Shown here piece after piece: positions 5,411 through 37,489 of a stretch of DNA of 38,890 nt; positions within the stretch are counted from its first letter, which is position 1, and each line of letters opens with the position of its first letter. The notes below the pieces were generated by a model. The model did no database searches, was not told the DNA's origin, and saw only the letters and a program-made list of their open reading frames with translations. The DNA is taken from positions 1 through 38,890 of the IMG/VR virus record IMGVR_UViG_3300031576_000168. One strand, 5' to 3'. This DNA is from a virus. The position numbers and the translations under genes are program-made.

Positions 5411-6204
5411 TGGCGGACAAGAACATCAACATAACGACCACGTGGAGCGCCGCCGCGATCACGAGCGCGGACGACGTCTACATCTTCTCCGGAGGAATCC
5501 TCAGTACCGACAGCGCAGGCAACGAGGCCAAGAGCATCCGTGTGGGGAACAACAAGGTCCGCGACACGCCGAGCGCGGGCACCCTCAAGATCGGCGCCGG
5601 CAACGGCATCAGGCTCAACAACACGACCGGCAGCGGAGGCGGGGCGCCGAACGGCGGCACGATCGAGATCGAGACGGGAGGGATAGTGTCCGACCGGACG
5701 CACGCGAGCCCGACGACGTTCGACCTTCAGGGGAAACTCTCGGTCATCAACACCGGGTTGCCGTCCATCCGGGGCCGGCTCGTGGTGTTCGATGGCACGC
5801 TCGACCTGTTGTTCACGCGGATCGACGCGACCGCTTCGGAGTTTGACCTAGGGCTGTACAAGCGGCAGGCGCCGACGACCGTATCGTTCATCCCGTTGCC
5901 GGACGGGTTCAGCGAGATCTTCGAGAAGCCGCCGAAGGTTCCGTCGCTCACAATCGAGGGAGGGAAGGACATGGAGCAATGGCTCGGTTCCCGGCTGCGA
6001 ACGGGTGAGATCGGATTCATCGAGGACGATGCGTCGTATCCGTTCCTGACGAAGCATCTCCAGGAGGAGGCGGGCAAGAACCTCCGCTGGTGGTATATCG
6101 GTCCCAAGCACCAACTCAAGGTGCGGCTGCTGGATTGCGTCACGAGGTTCGTGTCGCCGCGGAGCGTGCGACGTGCGACGTTGTCGTTGAAGGAGAGCAG
6201 CTAG
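5410..6204 (+). CDS. distal tail-like structural protein
   Basis: A 264-residue protein. Residues 1-100 look like a repetitive beta structure (many T, N, G and S with alternating hydrophobics). The second half is a mixed domain ending KHQLKVRLLDCVTRFVSPR. It lies between the tape measure and the large tail-hub protein, the position of the distal tail protein that joins tube to tip. The ATG overlaps the preceding TGA by one base, implying translational coupling. Family assignment is inferred from order. Confidence 0.5.
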   Translation: MADKNINITTTWSAAAITSADDVYIFSGGILSTDSAGNEAKSIRVGNNKVRDTPSAGTLKIGAGNGIRLNNTTGSGGGAPNGGTIEIETGGIVSDRTHASPTTFDLQGKLSVINTGLPSIRGRLVVFDGTLDLLFTRIDATASEFDLGLYKRQAPTTVSFIPLPDGFSEIFEKPPKVPSLTIEGGKDMEQWLGSRLRTGEIGFIEDDASYPFLTKHLQEEAGKNLRWWYIGPKHQLKVRLLDCVTRFVSPRSVRRATLSLKESS

Positions 6205-21577: not shown

Positions 21578-21696
21578 CATCACTGGCAACCGGATCGCCG
21601 GAGGCCCGGTCGGGAAGCGGGTTAATCACCTGTGGCACCCGACCGTCAATCTTAATATCCTCCGTGCCGATGGCCTCGATGCCACAGGTGATATGA
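21574..21696 (+). CDS. possible 40-residue peptide overlapping an RNA hairpin
   Basis: ATG 21574 overlaps the coiled-coil stop and the frame ends TGA at 21694-21696, overlapping the ATG of the HNH gene. It spans the long inverted repeat at 21625-21692, so translation through it could open that hairpin. As a protein it is unremarkable, and it may instead be a leader peptide or no gene. Confidence 0.3.
   Translation: MTSLATGSPEARSGSGLITCGTRPSILISSVPMASMPQVI
21625..21692. repeat. 12-bp perfect inverted repeat masking the ribosome-binding site of the HNH gene
   Basis: ATCACCTGTGGC (21625-21636) and GCCACAGGTGAT (21681-21692) are perfect complements separated by 44 bases. The right arm contains GGTGAT, the ribosome-binding sequence that lies directly before ATG 21693/21696. 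In RNA the left arm would pair with it and hide the start. Confidence 0.6.
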
Positions 21697-22163
21697 TGAG
21701 AGGAACTGTTTGGGAGAGATTTCAGCACTACGCGGAGATTCGGGGACGGGATGAATGTTGGCCGTGGAACGGAGACACGAAAGAGGACGGCTACGGTAGA
21801 CTTGCGCTCGACCGAACTGGTAAACACGTCAGGGCGCACCGATTCGCCTACGAGCATTTCATCGGCCCGATTTCAGAAGGTAAGCAGACAGATCACCTTT
21901 GTCGGAATCGTTGCTGTGTCAATCCGTGGCATCTTGAACTTGTAGATAGCAAAACGAATACGATGAGAGGCGACGGCCCGACAGCGAAGAACGCGAAGAA
22001 GAAGGAATGCAAACGAGGTCATCCGCTGGCTGGCGTCAATCTACTCGCGACTCGTCATTCCGATGGACATATGATGAGGAAATGTCGCGCTTGCCAACGG
22101 ATTCACAGCCTGAACAACTACTACAAGGTCGCCGCGCTCCAGGGCAAGAGGGGGGATGGGTGA
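21693..22163 (+). CDS. HNH endonuclease (homing type)
   Basis: 156 residues. The N-terminal CWPWNG-x-GYG pattern, then AHRFAYEHFIG, TDHLCRNRCCVNPWHLE and a final N give a standard HNH fold with C-x-x-C zinc pairs. The C-terminal half has a zinc site (CKRGHPL and CRACQR). Starts at ATG 21693 or 21696. The region is less GC-rich than its neighbours, consistent with a mobile homing gene. Confidence 0.85.
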   Translation: MMRGTVWERFQHYAEIRGRDECWPWNGDTKEDGYGRLALDRTGKHVRAHRFAYEHFIGPISEGKQTDHLCRNRCCVNPWHLELVDSKTNTMRGDGPTAKNAKKKECKRGHPLAGVNLLATRHSDGHMMRKCRACQRIHSLNNYYKVAALQGKRGDG

Positions 22164-22802: not shown

Positions 22803-23104
22803 TGGTGTCGGAATCTGAAGGCATCGACATCGAACTTCTCAGCCATCGAATCCAAGGCAAGCTTGCAGTGCGAACGGTGGTCCGCGTCTGCGGATTCCCG
22901 CACCCTGTTCAAGACCTCGCAGGCATTGGAGTAATGTGTGGCGAACCGCCAAGTCACGCTCAAGCTCATCGTTTTTTTGCTCTAGGGCATCCGGATGCTG
23001 AGGAGGTTCCGCCGCGCCTGAATCCCGCACACGTCGCCAAGCTCGTCAGTCTAATCAGGGAACACGGCAACGAGAAGGGGGTGGGTCAATCCCGCGAGGA
23101 GTGA
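22802..23104 (+). CDS. hypothetical protein, uncertain reading frame
   Basis: 100 residues; ATG 22802 overlaps the preceding stop. The second half (HPDAEEVPPRLNPAHVAKLVSLIREHG) looks like protein, but the first half is doubtful. A run of seven T at 22972-22978 lies inside, and the local composition is less GC-rich. A frame error cannot be excluded. Confidence 0.35.
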   Translation: MVSESEGIDIELLSHRIQGKLAVRTVVRVCGFPHPVQDLAGIGVMCGEPPSHAQAHRFFALGHPDAEEVPPRLNPAHVAKLVSLIREHGNEKGVGQSREE

Positions 23105-23682
23105 AGGATGGCCATTCCATCAATTGGAAAGGCGGGCGCACGGTGGCCTCGAACGGTTACGTGCTCATCTATGTCGGCCATGCCCATCCACTGGCAGACG
23201 TGCGAGGCTACGCCTATGAGCACCGCCTCGTCGCGATGAAGAAGATTGGTCGGCTGCTGACAAGTGAAGACATAATCCACCACATTGACCACGACAAACA
23301 GAACAACATCCCCTCAAACGTGGAGATAGTTACTCCTGCAGAACATCGTCACCGACATCGAATCCACAAGCGCGGCCTCCGCGAACCTGACGAGGCCAAT
23401 CCGTCCATCTCGTGCGCGTGTGGCTGCGGCGCCCGTCTTAGGAAGTACGACGGGTCCAATCGACCGCGCCGCTACATCTCGGGGCACAACGAGCCGTCTT
23501 CCCCGACGGTTGACGCGATCCTAGGAAACCTCGACATAAGGCCAATGACGAGGATGGAACTTATCGAGCAGACGGGCATTTCGAAGCGAGCAGTCGCGGC
23601 TTGTCTCTCGAAGCTGAAAAGCCGCGGTCGAGTCTTCAACCATCCTCATGGTGTTTGGCAGCGAACGCCGGGAGTTCCATGA
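23101..23682 (+). CDS. HNH endonuclease with C-terminal helix-turn-helix
   Basis: 193 residues from GTG 23101, which overlaps the preceding stop. The HNH core is GYAYEHRLVAMKKIGRLL, then DIIHHIDHDKQNNIPSNVEIVT and HRHRHRIH, with all three catalytic elements. A central CACGCG zinc-like turn follows, and the C-terminal MTRMELIEQTGISKRAVAACLSKLKSRGRV is a winged-helix/HTH domain. It differs in architecture from the other HNH genes. It is probably mobile or a regulator of insertion. Confidence 0.85.
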   Translation: MKDGHSINWKGGRTVASNGYVLIYVGHAHPLADVRGYAYEHRLVAMKKIGRLLTSEDIIHHIDHDKQNNIPSNVEIVTPAEHRHRHRIHKRGLREPDEANPSISCACGCGARLRKYDGSNRPRRYISGHNEPSSPTVDAILGNLDIRPMTRMELIEQTGISKRAVAACLSKLKSRGRVFNHPHGVWQRTPGVP

Positions 23683-23855
23683 GCTTCTATCATGGTGTGT
23701 GGGGCTGCGAGCTGCTGGACGGTACATCTTACCATGCGATGCCGGCGGGATGGTGAGGCGGTGTGGCTCTGGCTGCCGGACCCCGCGTTATCTCTCTCTG
23801 CTCGGGCTCCGGAGCGCTCGCCTTCGAAGTCCTCTGGGAAAGGCTGATGCGATGA
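23679..23855 (+). pseudogene. broken reading frame, possible methyltransferase remnant
   Basis: From ATG 23679 the frame gives 25 residues (ELLDGTSYHAMPAG) and stops at TGA 23754-23756. The same frame then continues open to TGA 23853-23855 with PRVISLCSGSGALAFE. The first segment resembles the start of an N6-adenine methyltransferase, and SLCSGSGALAFE resembles a methyltransferase AdoMet motif. Both are short, so this is a weak inference; it could also be two micro-ORFs. It lies just before two Mom-family genes and a ParB-like gene, where methylases are often found. Confidence 0.35.
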
Positions 23856-24373
23856 TGTCGGAGTTCGCGTTCATCGACTCGGTCGTGCCGATCAAGTCGT
23901 TGCCCGATGCCGTCCGGCCAATACGCTGGAGGGACGTGCGCCGGTTCGTGACAGCATTTCACTATCTCCATCGCGCGCCCCCGGGATGCCGGTTCGCTCT
24001 CGGGGTGTTTACGGAAGGAGGGAAACGGATGATGGGCGTCATGGTATTCGGTCGGCCGGTCGCCCGACTGGAGGACCAGACCGGGACGCTCGAACTGACG
24101 CGGATGGTTCTCTGGCCGAGCCCGAAGAACAGCGAGAGCCGCGCCCTTTCGCTAGCGGAGAAGTGGCTGCGAACGAATGCGCCGAGCGGCATCCGCCGGC
24201 TTATCGCCTATGCCGATTCCGAACGGCACACGGGAACGATTTACCGAGCGGCGAATTGGACGGAAACGAAACGCGATACCAGACGACCCGGTGATGGATG
24301 GACTTCGCGGAAGGACCGTATCCGTGATGCTGGCGGGCCGAAGATCAAGTTCGAGCGGGTGCTCCGGACATGA
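23852..24373 (+). CDS. Mom-family-like DNA modification protein, paralogue 1
   Basis: 173 residues from ATG 23852. The GNAT-like pattern of the Mom/XF1762 families is clear: HYLHRAPPGCRFALGVF, MMGVMVFGRPVARLED, LELTRMVL (about 80-87), IAYADSERHTGTIYRAANW (about 118-136). Mom of phage Mu modifies adenine in viral DNA to block restriction. Substrate and chemistry here are not known. It is separated from paralogue 2 by a ParB-like gene. The stop overlaps the next ATG by four bases. Confidence 0.75.
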   Translation: MMSEFAFIDSVVPIKSLPDAVRPIRWRDVRRFVTAFHYLHRAPPGCRFALGVFTEGGKRMMGVMVFGRPVARLEDQTGTLELTRMVLWPSPKNSESRALSLAEKWLRTNAPSGIRRLIAYADSERHTGTIYRAANWTETKRDTRRPGDGWTSRKDRIRDAGGPKIKFERVLRT

Positions 24374-24861
24374 AACCCCTTCAGTTCGAGCGTCGCTCGC
24401 TCGGTTCGCTGAAGCCCGACCCAGCTAACCCGCGCTCGATGCCCGAGGAACAGATGAAGGCCTTGGAGACGAGCATCGACCGGTGGGGACTGGTGGATCC
24501 AATCGTCATCAACAAGGACGGCACCATCATCGGGGGCCACCAGCGATACGAGGCCCTCAAGCGGAAGGGCATCGCGGAAGCCGATGTCGTGGTGCTGGAT
24601 CTGCCGGAGAACGAGGCGCGCGCCCTCAACATCGCCCTTAACCGCATCCACGGCGACTGGGATGTGGGGAAGCTCGAATCCCTGCTGCAAGACCTCGAAG
24701 CGTCGGGCATCGACCTCCAGCTAACGGGGTTCAGCCAGGACGAGATCGACAAGTTGCTCAACGCGGGTGAGTTCAGCCCTATCCCCGAGGATGCCGTCCC
24801 GCGGCTGGACGAAAGAAAGAAGGTGAAATGTCCTGAGTGCGGCCACGAGTTTGCACCTTGA
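24370..24861 (+). CDS. ParB/Srx-like nuclease-domain protein with C-terminal zinc half-site
   Basis: 163 residues. The N-terminal ParB-like pattern is present (LKPDPANPRSMPEEQMKAL, LVDPIVINKDGTIIGGHQRYEALKR, with GGHQRY at 55-60). A helical middle follows, and the C-terminus is KVKCPECGHEF, a CxxCxH zinc half-site. Single-domain ParB-like proteins in viruses often sit next to DNA-modification genes, where they may bind DNA or NTP. The position between two Mom-like genes supports this. It is not a partition system, since no ParA is present. Confidence 0.85.
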   Translation: MKPLQFERRSLGSLKPDPANPRSMPEEQMKALETSIDRWGLVDPIVINKDGTIIGGHQRYEALKRKGIAEADVVVLDLPENEARALNIALNRIHGDWDVGKLESLLQDLEASGIDLQLTGFSQDEIDKLLNAGEFSPIPEDAVPRLDERKKVKCPECGHEFAP

Positions 24862-25516
24862 CTGGTGCTCAGTCCAGGCCGCGCGCCACGCCGTCATGCG
24901 CTGGCACTACTCGAAGAGGCTGCCCACCGGCAAAGCAAACTGCATCGGGGTCTGGGAAGAGGACAAGTTCATCGGAGCCGTCATCTTCTCGTTGGGCGCT
25001 TCGCCCTACCTCGGCAAACGGTGGAAGCTGCCCCAGCAATCGGTCTGCGAGCTGACGCGGGTGGCACTCACGGCCCACCGCGCGCCCGTGTCCCGGATAA
25101 TCGCCATCGCGGTCAGGCTCGTGAGACGCCGCAACCCCGGACTCCGGCTGATCGCCTCGTTCGCCGACCCGCTCCACGGCCACCACGGCGGCATCTACCA
25201 AGCCTGCGGCTGGATCTACACGGGCAAGACGAAGGTCGCGGATGCGTGGGAGCACCGGGGTAAGGTGCTCCACATCCGGGCCTTCAGCGGGCACAACTTC
25301 GGCCGCCCGCGCATGAAGCTCCCGGCCGGCGCCAAACCCATCAAGGTCCCGGCCAAGCATCGTTATCTACTCCCGCTCGATCCACAGACGCGCGCGCTCA
25401 TCGAGCCCGCGCGCCAGCCGTATCCACGCGCCGGTGGTGTAGAGGGCAGCACGGCCCCCAACCAGGGGGCAAGGGGCGGTTCGAACCCGACCCTGGCGCA
25501 TCCCGAAGAAAGCTGA
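24851..25516 (+). CDS. mom: Mom-family adenine modification protein, paralogue 2
   Basis: 221 residues, starting at TTG 24851 and overlapping the ParB-like gene by 11 bases. The pattern is closer to the Mom family of phage Mu than paralogue 1: RWHYSKRLPTGKANCIGVWE, KFIGAVIFSLGA, CELTRVAL (66-73), SFADPLHGHHGGIYQACGWIYTG (103-125). Family members carry out adenine methylcarbamoylation of viral DNA. Residues from about 195 are encoded by the tRNA-like element and are probably not a conserved domain. Confidence 0.8.
   Translation: MHLDWCSVQAARHAVMRWHYSKRLPTGKANCIGVWEEDKFIGAVIFSLGASPYLGKRWKLPQQSVCELTRVALTAHRAPVSRIIAIAVRLVRRRNPGLRLIASFADPLHGHHGGIYQACGWIYTGKTKVADAWEHRGKVLHIRAFSGHNFGRPRMKLPAGAKPIKVPAKHRYLLPLDPQTRALIEPARQPYPRAGGVEGSTAPNQGARGGSNPTLAHPEES
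25428..25500 (+). tRNA. degenerate tRNA-Gly-like element overlapping the Mom gene end
   Basis: A cloverleaf can be drawn. The acceptor stem GCGCCGG pairs with CTGGCGC (one G-T). The D arm is GTGT/GCAC with loop AGAGGGCA. The anticodon stem GCCCC pairs with GGGGC, and the T loop is TTCGAAC. Discriminator A and C35-C36 fit tRNA-Gly. Two defects stand out: U33 is A, giving loop CAACCAG and anticodon ACC, and the T stem carries a bulged A (25490). Either it is a decaying tRNA captured from a host, or an atypical functional or structural RNA. No CCA is encoded. Confidence 0.5.
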
Positions 25517-27312: not shown

Positions 27313-27539
27313 CCCCCACCTTCGCCGAACCCCGGATCGCCGTCGGCGGCTGCGCCAACTGTTTCATCCAGCAGGGCGAAGTCGTGTGGGGCGGGCCAGA
27401 GCCCGACTATCGCTGGCTGTGCATCAACTGCGGTGAGCCCTACGCGAAACGCCGCGCCTTCCTCAAGCCGGGCCAAGTGCCGCCCGAGACGGATGTCGTG
27501 CCGGTCGGCCACGCGCGCTATCCGGCGGCGCCAGCATGA
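27309..27539 (+). CDS. zinc-ribbon protein
   Basis: 76 residues. CANCF near 15-19 and CINCGEPY near 39-46 form a four-cysteine zinc ribbon. ATG 27309 overlaps the preceding stop. The C-terminal part is Pro/Val-rich. No family was recognised. Confidence 0.55.
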   Translation: MTPTFAEPRIAVGGCANCFIQQGEVVWGGPEPDYRWLCINCGEPYAKRRAFLKPGQVPPETDVVPVGHARYPAAPA

Positions 27540-27667
27540 TGACCCGTTCCGAAGCCCTGACCACTCTGCTCGCCGACGTCCGCCAAGCCGAGACGTATCT
27601 TCTCCTTCTCGACCGCGGCGAGGAGCATTATCGCCGCTCGCTCGAATGCTCGCGGAGGATTTCCTGA
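27536..27667 (+). CDS. small helical protein, 43 residues
   Basis: ATGATG at 27536/27539 overlaps the preceding TGA, and its stop overlaps the ATG of the DUF4326 gene. The sequence is a single amphipathic helix region (LTTLLADVRQAETYLLLLDR). Tight coupling on both sides supports it as a gene. Confidence 0.4.
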   Translation: MMTRSEALTTLLADVRQAETYLLLLDRGEEHYRRSLECSRRIS

Positions 27668-27942
27668 TGCCCCGCGTGCTGAATGTCCATGACTTCCAAC
27701 GCGGAATCGACGACCTTCCGCCCAACACGGTCACCGTGATGCGCCCGTCAAGGTGGGGGAACCCGTTCCGTATTGGCAAGGACTGCACCCGCGACGAGGC
27801 TGTGGACCAGTTCGAACTTCACCTCCTCGCTTCTCCGGAACTGCTCGCCGATCTCGACGAACTCAAAGGGAAAGACCTCGTGTGCTGCTGCGCGCCAAAG
27901 CGATGCCACGGCGACGTCCTGCTGAAGTACGCCAATAGGTGA
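27667..27942 (+). CDS. DUF4326-family protein
   Basis: 91 residues. The DUF4326 pattern is complete: SRWGNPFRIG at about 28-37, ELKGKDLVCCCAPKRCHGDVLLKYAN at the C-terminus with C73-C75 and CHGD at 80-83. Cysteine and histidine spacing suggests metal binding or a nucleotide-related fold; the molecular role of the family is not established. It is common in viruses. ATG overlaps the previous stop. Confidence 0.8.
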   Translation: MPRVLNVHDFQRGIDDLPPNTVTVMRPSRWGNPFRIGKDCTRDEAVDQFELHLLASPELLADLDELKGKDLVCCCAPKRCHGDVLLKYANR

Positions 27943-36655: not shown

Positions 36656-37489
36656 ATGGCAAGCGCACTGACGGACGAGCAGATCAAGTTCCTGCGGACC
36701 GCGGTCGTGAACACCCTCCGGGAGAACCTCGTCGCGCGCACGATCTTCCCCACGAGCCCCATCGGGAAGGGGAAGCGGAAGTTCGACTACGACGAGGAGT
36801 CGGAGATGGGCGCCGCGGGCATCGTGCATCCGGGCAACCCGTTCCCCGAGGACAAGACCGAGCTCACCCGGAGGAGCGTCCGCGTCTCGAAGATCGGCAA
36901 GGCGTTCTCGATAACGTTCGAGGATCAGGACGCCAGCGAGACGGAAGGGATGCCACTGAGCACCCGGCTCGCCCGGCAGGCCGCGAGGCGCGTGGCCGAG
37001 CTGGAGGAGCAGATACTCCTGTTGGGCAACACGACCTATACCATCGACGGCATCGAGAACGTCGCGGGCAGCAACACGACCGCGGCCGCCGCGACCTGGA
37101 GCAACGCCGCTGCGAAGCCTTACCAGGACGTGAACGACGCGATCACGAAGCTGGAGGAGGACAACGTCGACACCTCGCGCATGGTGCTTATCGTGCCGCG
37201 GGCGACCTACGGGCACCTCCGCCGGCTGTCCGCGCAGGACAACGTCATCCTCGACCAAGTGCTGAGCATCGTGCCGCGGGTCGTGCCGAGCGCGACCATC
37301 ACCGCGACGCAGGCGCTGCTCGTAGCGCCGAGCCCGGAGAACTTCGAGATCGCCATGTCGGAGGACGCGATGACGAAGGGCCCGGTCATGGACGAGAAGC
37401 AGGAGAAGCACTTCTTCAAGGTCCGGGAGCGGTTCGGGTTCGCGATCTACCACCCGACGGCGATCTGCAAGATCACCGGCGTCGCCTGA
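36656..37489 (+). CDS. major capsid protein, HK97 fold
   Basis: 277 residues, short for the family. It shows an N-terminal helix (LTDEQIKFLRTAVVNTLRENLVARTIFP), an E-loop-like region with FDYDEESEMGAA, a spine helix with TRLARQAARRVAELEEQILLLG, a P-domain with AYQDVNDAITKLEEDNVDTSRMVLIVPRATYGHLRR, and a C-terminal part ending MDEKQEKHFFKVRERFGFAIYHPTAICKITG. The order and FGFAIYHPTAICKI ending resemble encapsulin-like capsid proteins. It is preceded by a decoration gene and followed by a stable hairpin. Confidence 0.85.
   Translation: MASALTDEQIKFLRTAVVNTLRENLVARTIFPTSPIGKGKRKFDYDEESEMGAAGIVHPGNPFPEDKTELTRRSVRVSKIGKAFSITFEDQDASETEGMPLSTRLARQAARRVAELEEQILLLGNTTYTIDGIENVAGSNTTAAAATWSNAAAKPYQDVNDAITKLEEDNVDTSRMVLIVPRATYGHLRRLSAQDNVILDQVLSIVPRVVPSATITATQALLVAPSPENFEIAMSEDAMTKGPVMDEKQEKHFFKVRERFGFAIYHPTAICKITGVA

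Follow-up and report, generated by a model that had tools for sequence, protein, structure and literature searches.

The window analysed here is the entire 38,890-nt viral stretch of IMG/VR record IMGVR_UViG_3300031576_000168; L-numbers denote the loci and contigs compared with it. Four closely packed features were found on its plus strand, namely mom1, a parB-like gene, mom2 and a tRNA-Gly-like gene, with the following coordinates.

23852..24373, plus strand: Mom1, a short Mom-family GNAT, XF1762-like, without the C-terminal KHRY...PYPK part
24370..24861, plus strand: ParB-like protein with a C-terminal CxxC (ParB_N; phrog_620, 2.6e-49), overlapping the start of Mom2
24851..25516, plus strand: Mom2, a full-length Mom GNAT (PF25680)
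25428..25500, plus strand: tRNA-Gly-like gene (ARAGORN) with anticodon ACC, A33 and A73, overlapping the 3' end of mom2
25461..25463, plus strand: anticodon ACC (positions 34-36); its loop is closed by the pair C32-G38 (alignment and pair counts)
25490, plus strand: position of the conserved T-stem bulge, an A (RNAalifold on the element alignment)
25500, plus strand: discriminator base A73, the sole A among 114 distinct elements, the other 113 having U

The original prediction, made from the DNA letters, had recognised two Mom-family proteins here, and profile searches bore this out. PF25680 (curated cut-off 27.1 bits) matches Mom1 at 1.4e-25 (90.6 bits) and Mom2 at 4.5e-43 (147.7 bits), and both proteins also match phrog_1384. 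The common core proposed for the two was recovered as an alignment of 135 residues with 28% identity, containing the ELTR, S, AD and IYxAxxW elements. By score Mom1 is a member of the XF1762 family NF045478 (76.1 bits against a cut-off of 50), from which it differs in that a ParB-like gene and then a full-length Mom come after it. The expected GNAT fold was confirmed by structure prediction and comparison with phage Mu Mom: structure 8bv8 is the top match for both AlphaFold2 models, with a Z of 20.5 and an rmsd of 2.9 over 184 residues for Mom2 (pLDDT 95.4), and a Z of 15.5 for the weaker model of Mom1 (pLDDT 68.1). Next after Mu Mom, Foldseek ranks acyl-CoA GNATs as the nearest folds. No further aminoacyl-tRNA transferase fold was conspicuous among its matches, which we do not count as counter-evidence. 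Ser81 of Mom2, the equivalent of Mu S124, aligns with S96 of Mom1 and is S in 61 and T in 7 of 68 aligned Moms; R70, S81 (S or T), D106 and Y116 are conserved in the Moms aligned. S124A is the inactive mutant in the Mu Mom structure 8bv8.

The two proteins had been taken for old paralogues or separate captures. Consistent with this, they fall into different well-supported groups in a tree of 98 Moms (SH-aLRT 98 and 97). The short XF1762-like Moms with which Mom1 groups (98) lack a tRNA, whereas all 23 rows of the set holding Mom2 (97) have one on the 3' side. No close relatives of Mom1 were found in the viral contigs. The two enzymes might make different modifications or form a heteromer, as the original prediction proposed.

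The protein encoded between the two moms is ParB-like, as predicted (ParB_N PF02195, 32.9 bits against the Pfam cut-off of 26.3). Its C-terminus has a single CxxC, the zinc half-site likened in kind to Com-type regulators, which scores below every Pfam cut-off (Zn_ribbon_4, 17.5 bits against 30.3). Two Mom-like enzymes with a ParB-like partner in an archaeal virus had been thought an unfamiliar combination; a ParB-like partner is in fact the rule in the Mom family. In two viral sets, a ParB gene lies just upstream of mom in 71/72 and 66/66 of the loci with sufficient upstream sequence (137/138 together), and the same holds for 15 of 39 bacterial-genome loci. Nor is the double mom unique to the window, as four other contigs (L021, L039, L044 and L103) have two. 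The 'broken frame' described upstream (∼23683-23851) was not confirmed; none of its frames gave a family match. We also considered it as a methyltransferase remnant and rejected this, the motif-I-like stretch being at chance level only (E 0.33; E 2). Near the mom cassette, two HNH endonucleases (HNH_3) are encoded at 21693-22163 and 23101-23682, the latter fused to a winged-helix-like C-terminal part.

The homologous part of Mom2 stops at about 25429 (PYPR), and the remainder of the ORF is the tRNA region. This tRNA-Gly-like gene was absent from the original prediction. It was found by ARAGORN, which calls a tRNA-Gly at the mom end both in the window and in L004; a tRNA-Gly is likewise annotated at the mom end in the record of Salinibacter phage B2_17. 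We examined the 3' end of mom in 80 viral relatives, and nearly all have the same fold there. From a gapless alignment of 28 elements (27 loci of the first viral set plus the window) we built a covariance model, R1. In the window, whose element is among the 28 training sequences, R1 gives a single match (72.9 bits, E 2.2e-16). Matches were obtained in 82 of the 88 loci of the first viral set, 27 of which had trained the model, always on the mom strand and at the mom 3' end; elsewhere in the 521 kb of these loci nothing scored below E 0.4. As the query for this set contained tRNA-encoded residues, its prevalence is biased, and the unbiased figures are those from an independent set and from a scan with a tRNA pattern. 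The independent set, collected with the Mom of Enterococcus phage phiEf11, a Mom without a tRNA, gave matches in 47 of 79 loci, again confined to the 3' end of mom. Among bacterial sequences, whether prophages or MAG contigs, R1 matches adjoin mom in several groups, including Gammaproteobacteria, Desulfobacterales, Planctomycetes and Dehalococcoidia.

For the reverse test, we scanned the viral collection with a pattern that describes just the 3' half of the tRNA and is blind to mom; it matched at least 120 loci. Among the 120 matches listed, a Mom profile match lies directly upstream of the element in 70 and directly downstream in 41 (111 adjoining), and mom is found at 0.4-1.3 kb in 3 more; all 114 are on the same strand and none on the opposite one. 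In most of the remaining 6 listed loci the element is near a contig edge; among these, L269 has a visible PYPK end, and L249 and L284 have a Mom-like C-terminal piece by eye. Apart from ParB-mom-tRNA, we observed the orders tRNA-mom-ParB (L193), tRNA-ORF-mom-ParB (L195) and a divergent one (L200), so the tRNA-mom link survives rearrangement. In L191 the mom tRNA is present twice, the second copy (5653-5725) being near-identical and ∼2.2 kb past the first, with no detected Mom adjoining it. In Microbacterium phage Appa (L009), a tRNA-Gly(ccc) at 5630-5704 lies just after mom on the opposite strand.

No such tRNA was found with the Firmicutes and Yersinia-type moms or with Mu mom; the tRNA gene is therefore not obligatory for mom, and the host tRNAGly must serve those moms that have no tRNA gene of their own. 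A possible association with XF1762-like phage moms was dropped, R1 finding nothing in L211-L216.

Acceptor, D, anticodon and T stems all find support in the alignment of the 28 elements, where 97.6% of the cells are paired and each of the four stems shows compensatory changes. Changes on both sides were seen in 17 of the 22 pairs, and the covariation exceeds that of 500/500 shuffles and of all slid registers, the shuffle count (0/500) not being a probability because the aligned elements are kin. The folding energy of the window element is only modestly better than that of its shuffles (z -1.83). For the T arm, we also tried a G:A mismatch with an extra pair (a 13-bp stack), which pairs 81% of the T-stem cells against 100% with the bulged A, and this was rejected. 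The T-stem bulge is kept with compensated neighbours in L166, L193, L049 and L067.

Of the 114 distinct elements, 102 were parsed automatically and 98 of those have an NCC anticodon; the 16 others, read by eye, have NCC in the loop too. The positions at which GlyRS recognises its tRNA for charging with glycine are G1-C72, C2-G71, C35, C36 and U73 or A73 (PMC9976931), U73 being the base of Bacteria and A73 that of Archaea and Eukarya (PMC9976931; PMC6097841). Both G1-C72 and C2-G71 are present in 98/98 of the parsed NCC elements, and besides the near-constant U73 a CCA is encoded in 87/114. The window element has the whole set, with A73 at the discriminator position. A pattern search for more A73 elements yielded none. 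At the 3' end of mom in L163 (∼1425-1497) and L164 lies a tRNA-Gly(TCC) that, by eye, is canonical and has A73.

Features of decoding are much less constant. Decoding tRNAs have U at position 33. Position 33 of the 98 elements is T in 34, G in 32, A in 19 and C in 13, so that U33 is kept in 34/98. Positions 32 and 38 can form a Watson-Crick pair in 91/98, leaving a loop of 5 nt. In 94/98 distinct NCC elements the T stem has a bulged A. The window element departs from an ordinary decoding tRNA, with its U33 and open 7-nt anticodon loop, in having A33 and the C32-G38 pair. Elements upstream of mom mostly keep U33, and they keep the bulge; their loop is 6 nt by eye, and in this mom-downstream class U33 is present in 12 of the 13 elements that a 7-nt parser reads as NCC. 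The constancy of the identity positions together with the loss of U33 and of the 7-nt loop indicates that charging has been kept by selection and decoding relaxed. Most elements escape both ARAGORN and the Rfam tRNA model RF00005. The latter does not match the window element at the gathering threshold or at any E up to 10, and among 12 sources tested just L041 passes. L044 and L103 have very short anticodon hairpins, with ACC or TCC seemingly in a 3-nt loop.

In 94 of 109 cases the mom frame runs through the element without a stop. Element frames are open far more often when they coincide with the mom frame: the counts, mom versus non-mom, are 43/49 versus 19/60 and 48/49 versus 27/60. The encoded peptide varies between loci since the mom frame varies relative to the tRNA, and it seems that openness is kept and not a particular peptide. 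The coding use and the RNA use of the mom 3' end seem to compete, and a single transcript may serve either translation or tRNA release.

We consider it very probable that mom1-parB-mom2-tRNAGly is a DNA adenine modification cassette carrying its own glycine donor. The element itself is best read as a tRNAGly that is dedicated to providing Mom with glycine and has largely given up decoding. This reading is built on the observed genes, fold, tRNA-mom linkage and covariation, and on the kept identity positions and lost decoding features. The host GlyRS would charge the virus-encoded tRNA with glycine, and Mom2, a GNAT, would take the glycyl group from it and place it, probably via Ser81, onto adenine N6. 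The amine of the glycine would then attack C6 via a five-membered ring and displace N6, giving alpha-N-(purin-6-yl)glycinamide, the known Mom product, also called carbamoylmethyl-adenine. The Mu product, alpha-N-(deoxyribofuranosylpurin-6-yl)glycinamide (Swinton 1983, as cited in PMC3874153), is an isomer of N6-glycyl-adenine. The altered anticodon loop and the bulged T stem would bar the tRNA from the ribosome, directing its glycine to DNA; our guess is that the bulge probably keeps it from the elongation factor (EF-Tu). The ParB-like proteins would probably recruit Mom, bringing it to the DNA.

We lean, with less assurance, towards a broader proposal: a class of virus-encoded tRNAs, released from decoding and lying within or next to mom, has evolved only to carry glycine to DNA. 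It would be matched to the host GlyRS, with U73 in bacterial viruses and A73 in a possibly archaeal virus here, and possibly shared by the two Moms.

A glycine donor of this kind has already been announced for Mu, in a report of an October 2025 meeting, according to which the Mu modification depends on tRNAGly (PMC12908700), and our genomic linkage is a line of evidence independent of it. In the open literature, with most subscription papers and preprints lying outside the search, we found no paper linking mom with a tRNA gene, and a mom-linked, widespread, virus-encoded, largely non-decoding tRNA family appears to be undescribed. Mom2 is of the same family as Mu Mom over its full length (profile 1.1e-29), with the same fold (Z 20.5), and Mu Mom ends at the same PYPK. 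The settings differ, Mu having com, one mom, no ParB partner and no tRNA gene, whereas the window has two moms, a ParB-like protein and its own tRNAGly. Such a tRNAGly, kept out of translation to serve a transferase, would have a counterpart in the FemXAB system of the Gram-positive cell wall, as cited in PMC6097841. There the acceptor is peptidoglycan, whereas here it would be DNA, and here the tRNA is virus-encoded, adjoins the gene of its user and has a shortened anticodon loop and a bulged T stem. The TacT toxin is a GNAT that recognises charged tRNAGly through U73 and G71; since it acetylates the glycine of Gly-tRNAGly (PMC9976931), a GNAT acting on this substrate has precedent. TacT thereby stops translation, whereas Mom would put the glycyl group on DNA.

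The fact that the frame of mom is kept open across the nested element, so that processing would cut the mom message, could also point to regulation: a tRNA-like fold, through cleavage by RNase P/Z or binding of Mom or GlyRS, would control the mom mRNA without ever donating glycine. Artificially expressed Mom is reportedly toxic (PMC12707154), and Com control of Mu mom offers a parallel. We regard this explanation as unlikely, because 41 of the 120 listed elements (at least 120 in all) sit upstream of mom, and because regulation has no need of NCC, G1-C72, C2-G71, U73 or an encoded CCA (87/114). It also leaves the reported tRNAGly dependence of Mu unexplained, although both roles may coexist. 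An attachment-site remnant, left as a tRNA-like 3' end by mom after integration into a host tRNA-Gly gene, has practically no probability in our estimate. tRNA genes are frequent integration sites (PMC12324425), but the element is complete, diverged, covarying, mom-oriented and mom-linked across viruses of unrelated hosts. The compensatory changes in all four stems contradict a remnant, and no integrase match was obtained among the scanned window proteins.

Phage tRNAs are common, and a few of the elements look canonical (L041, L163/L164, actinophage L052 and L007), as would be expected of an ordinary tRNA-Gly for translation, or of a decoy or replacement against host anticodon nucleases, that adjoins mom merely through a shared defence or late operon. 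We find this very unlikely. Glycine alone was found, almost always adjoining mom; the 3' class lacks U33 and has a shortened anticodon loop and a bulged T stem, and ARAGORN and the Rfam tRNA model miss most elements. Highly improbable, too, is an incidental tRNA link with acetyl-CoA as the donor of Mom, in iron-assisted chemistry, as Karambelkar is reported to have proposed in 2020. The GNAT fold and its CoA-dependent nearest neighbours agree with such a donor, and an acyl-CoA such as glycyl-CoA was assumed in an earlier text (PMC7824862). Against it speak a conserved link to a glycine tRNA, seen when starting from either gene, the fact that the product is a glycinamide, and the Mu meeting report.

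The source of the Mom side group was long unclear. The tie between a tRNAGly gene and mom across many viruses is independent genomic evidence for a glycyl-tRNA donor; it accounts for the product being a glycinamide, and lets one predict the mom systems that come with a tRNA of their own. As the same gene adjoins mom in a very wide range of viruses, the data suggest that the glycine attached to viral DNA is delivered by a tRNA which the viruses themselves encode. If true, this would be a clear example of tRNAs put to use in DNA chemistry, and of a tRNA family overlooked by most tRNA finders and partly concealed in coding sequence.

The A73 of the window element is consistent with the archaeal host supposed in the original prediction, and the virus is possibly archaeal. 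Assignment of the host from terminase and portal was abandoned, the relatives being too distant and mixed (Haloarchaea and Gammaproteobacteria); the terminase search gave no close viral contig. Elsewhere in the window, 27433-27942 encodes a DUF4326 protein (1.2e-22), and 36656-37489 a capsid-like protein for which the encapsulin family PF04454 (2.8e-22) outscores the phage capsid families.
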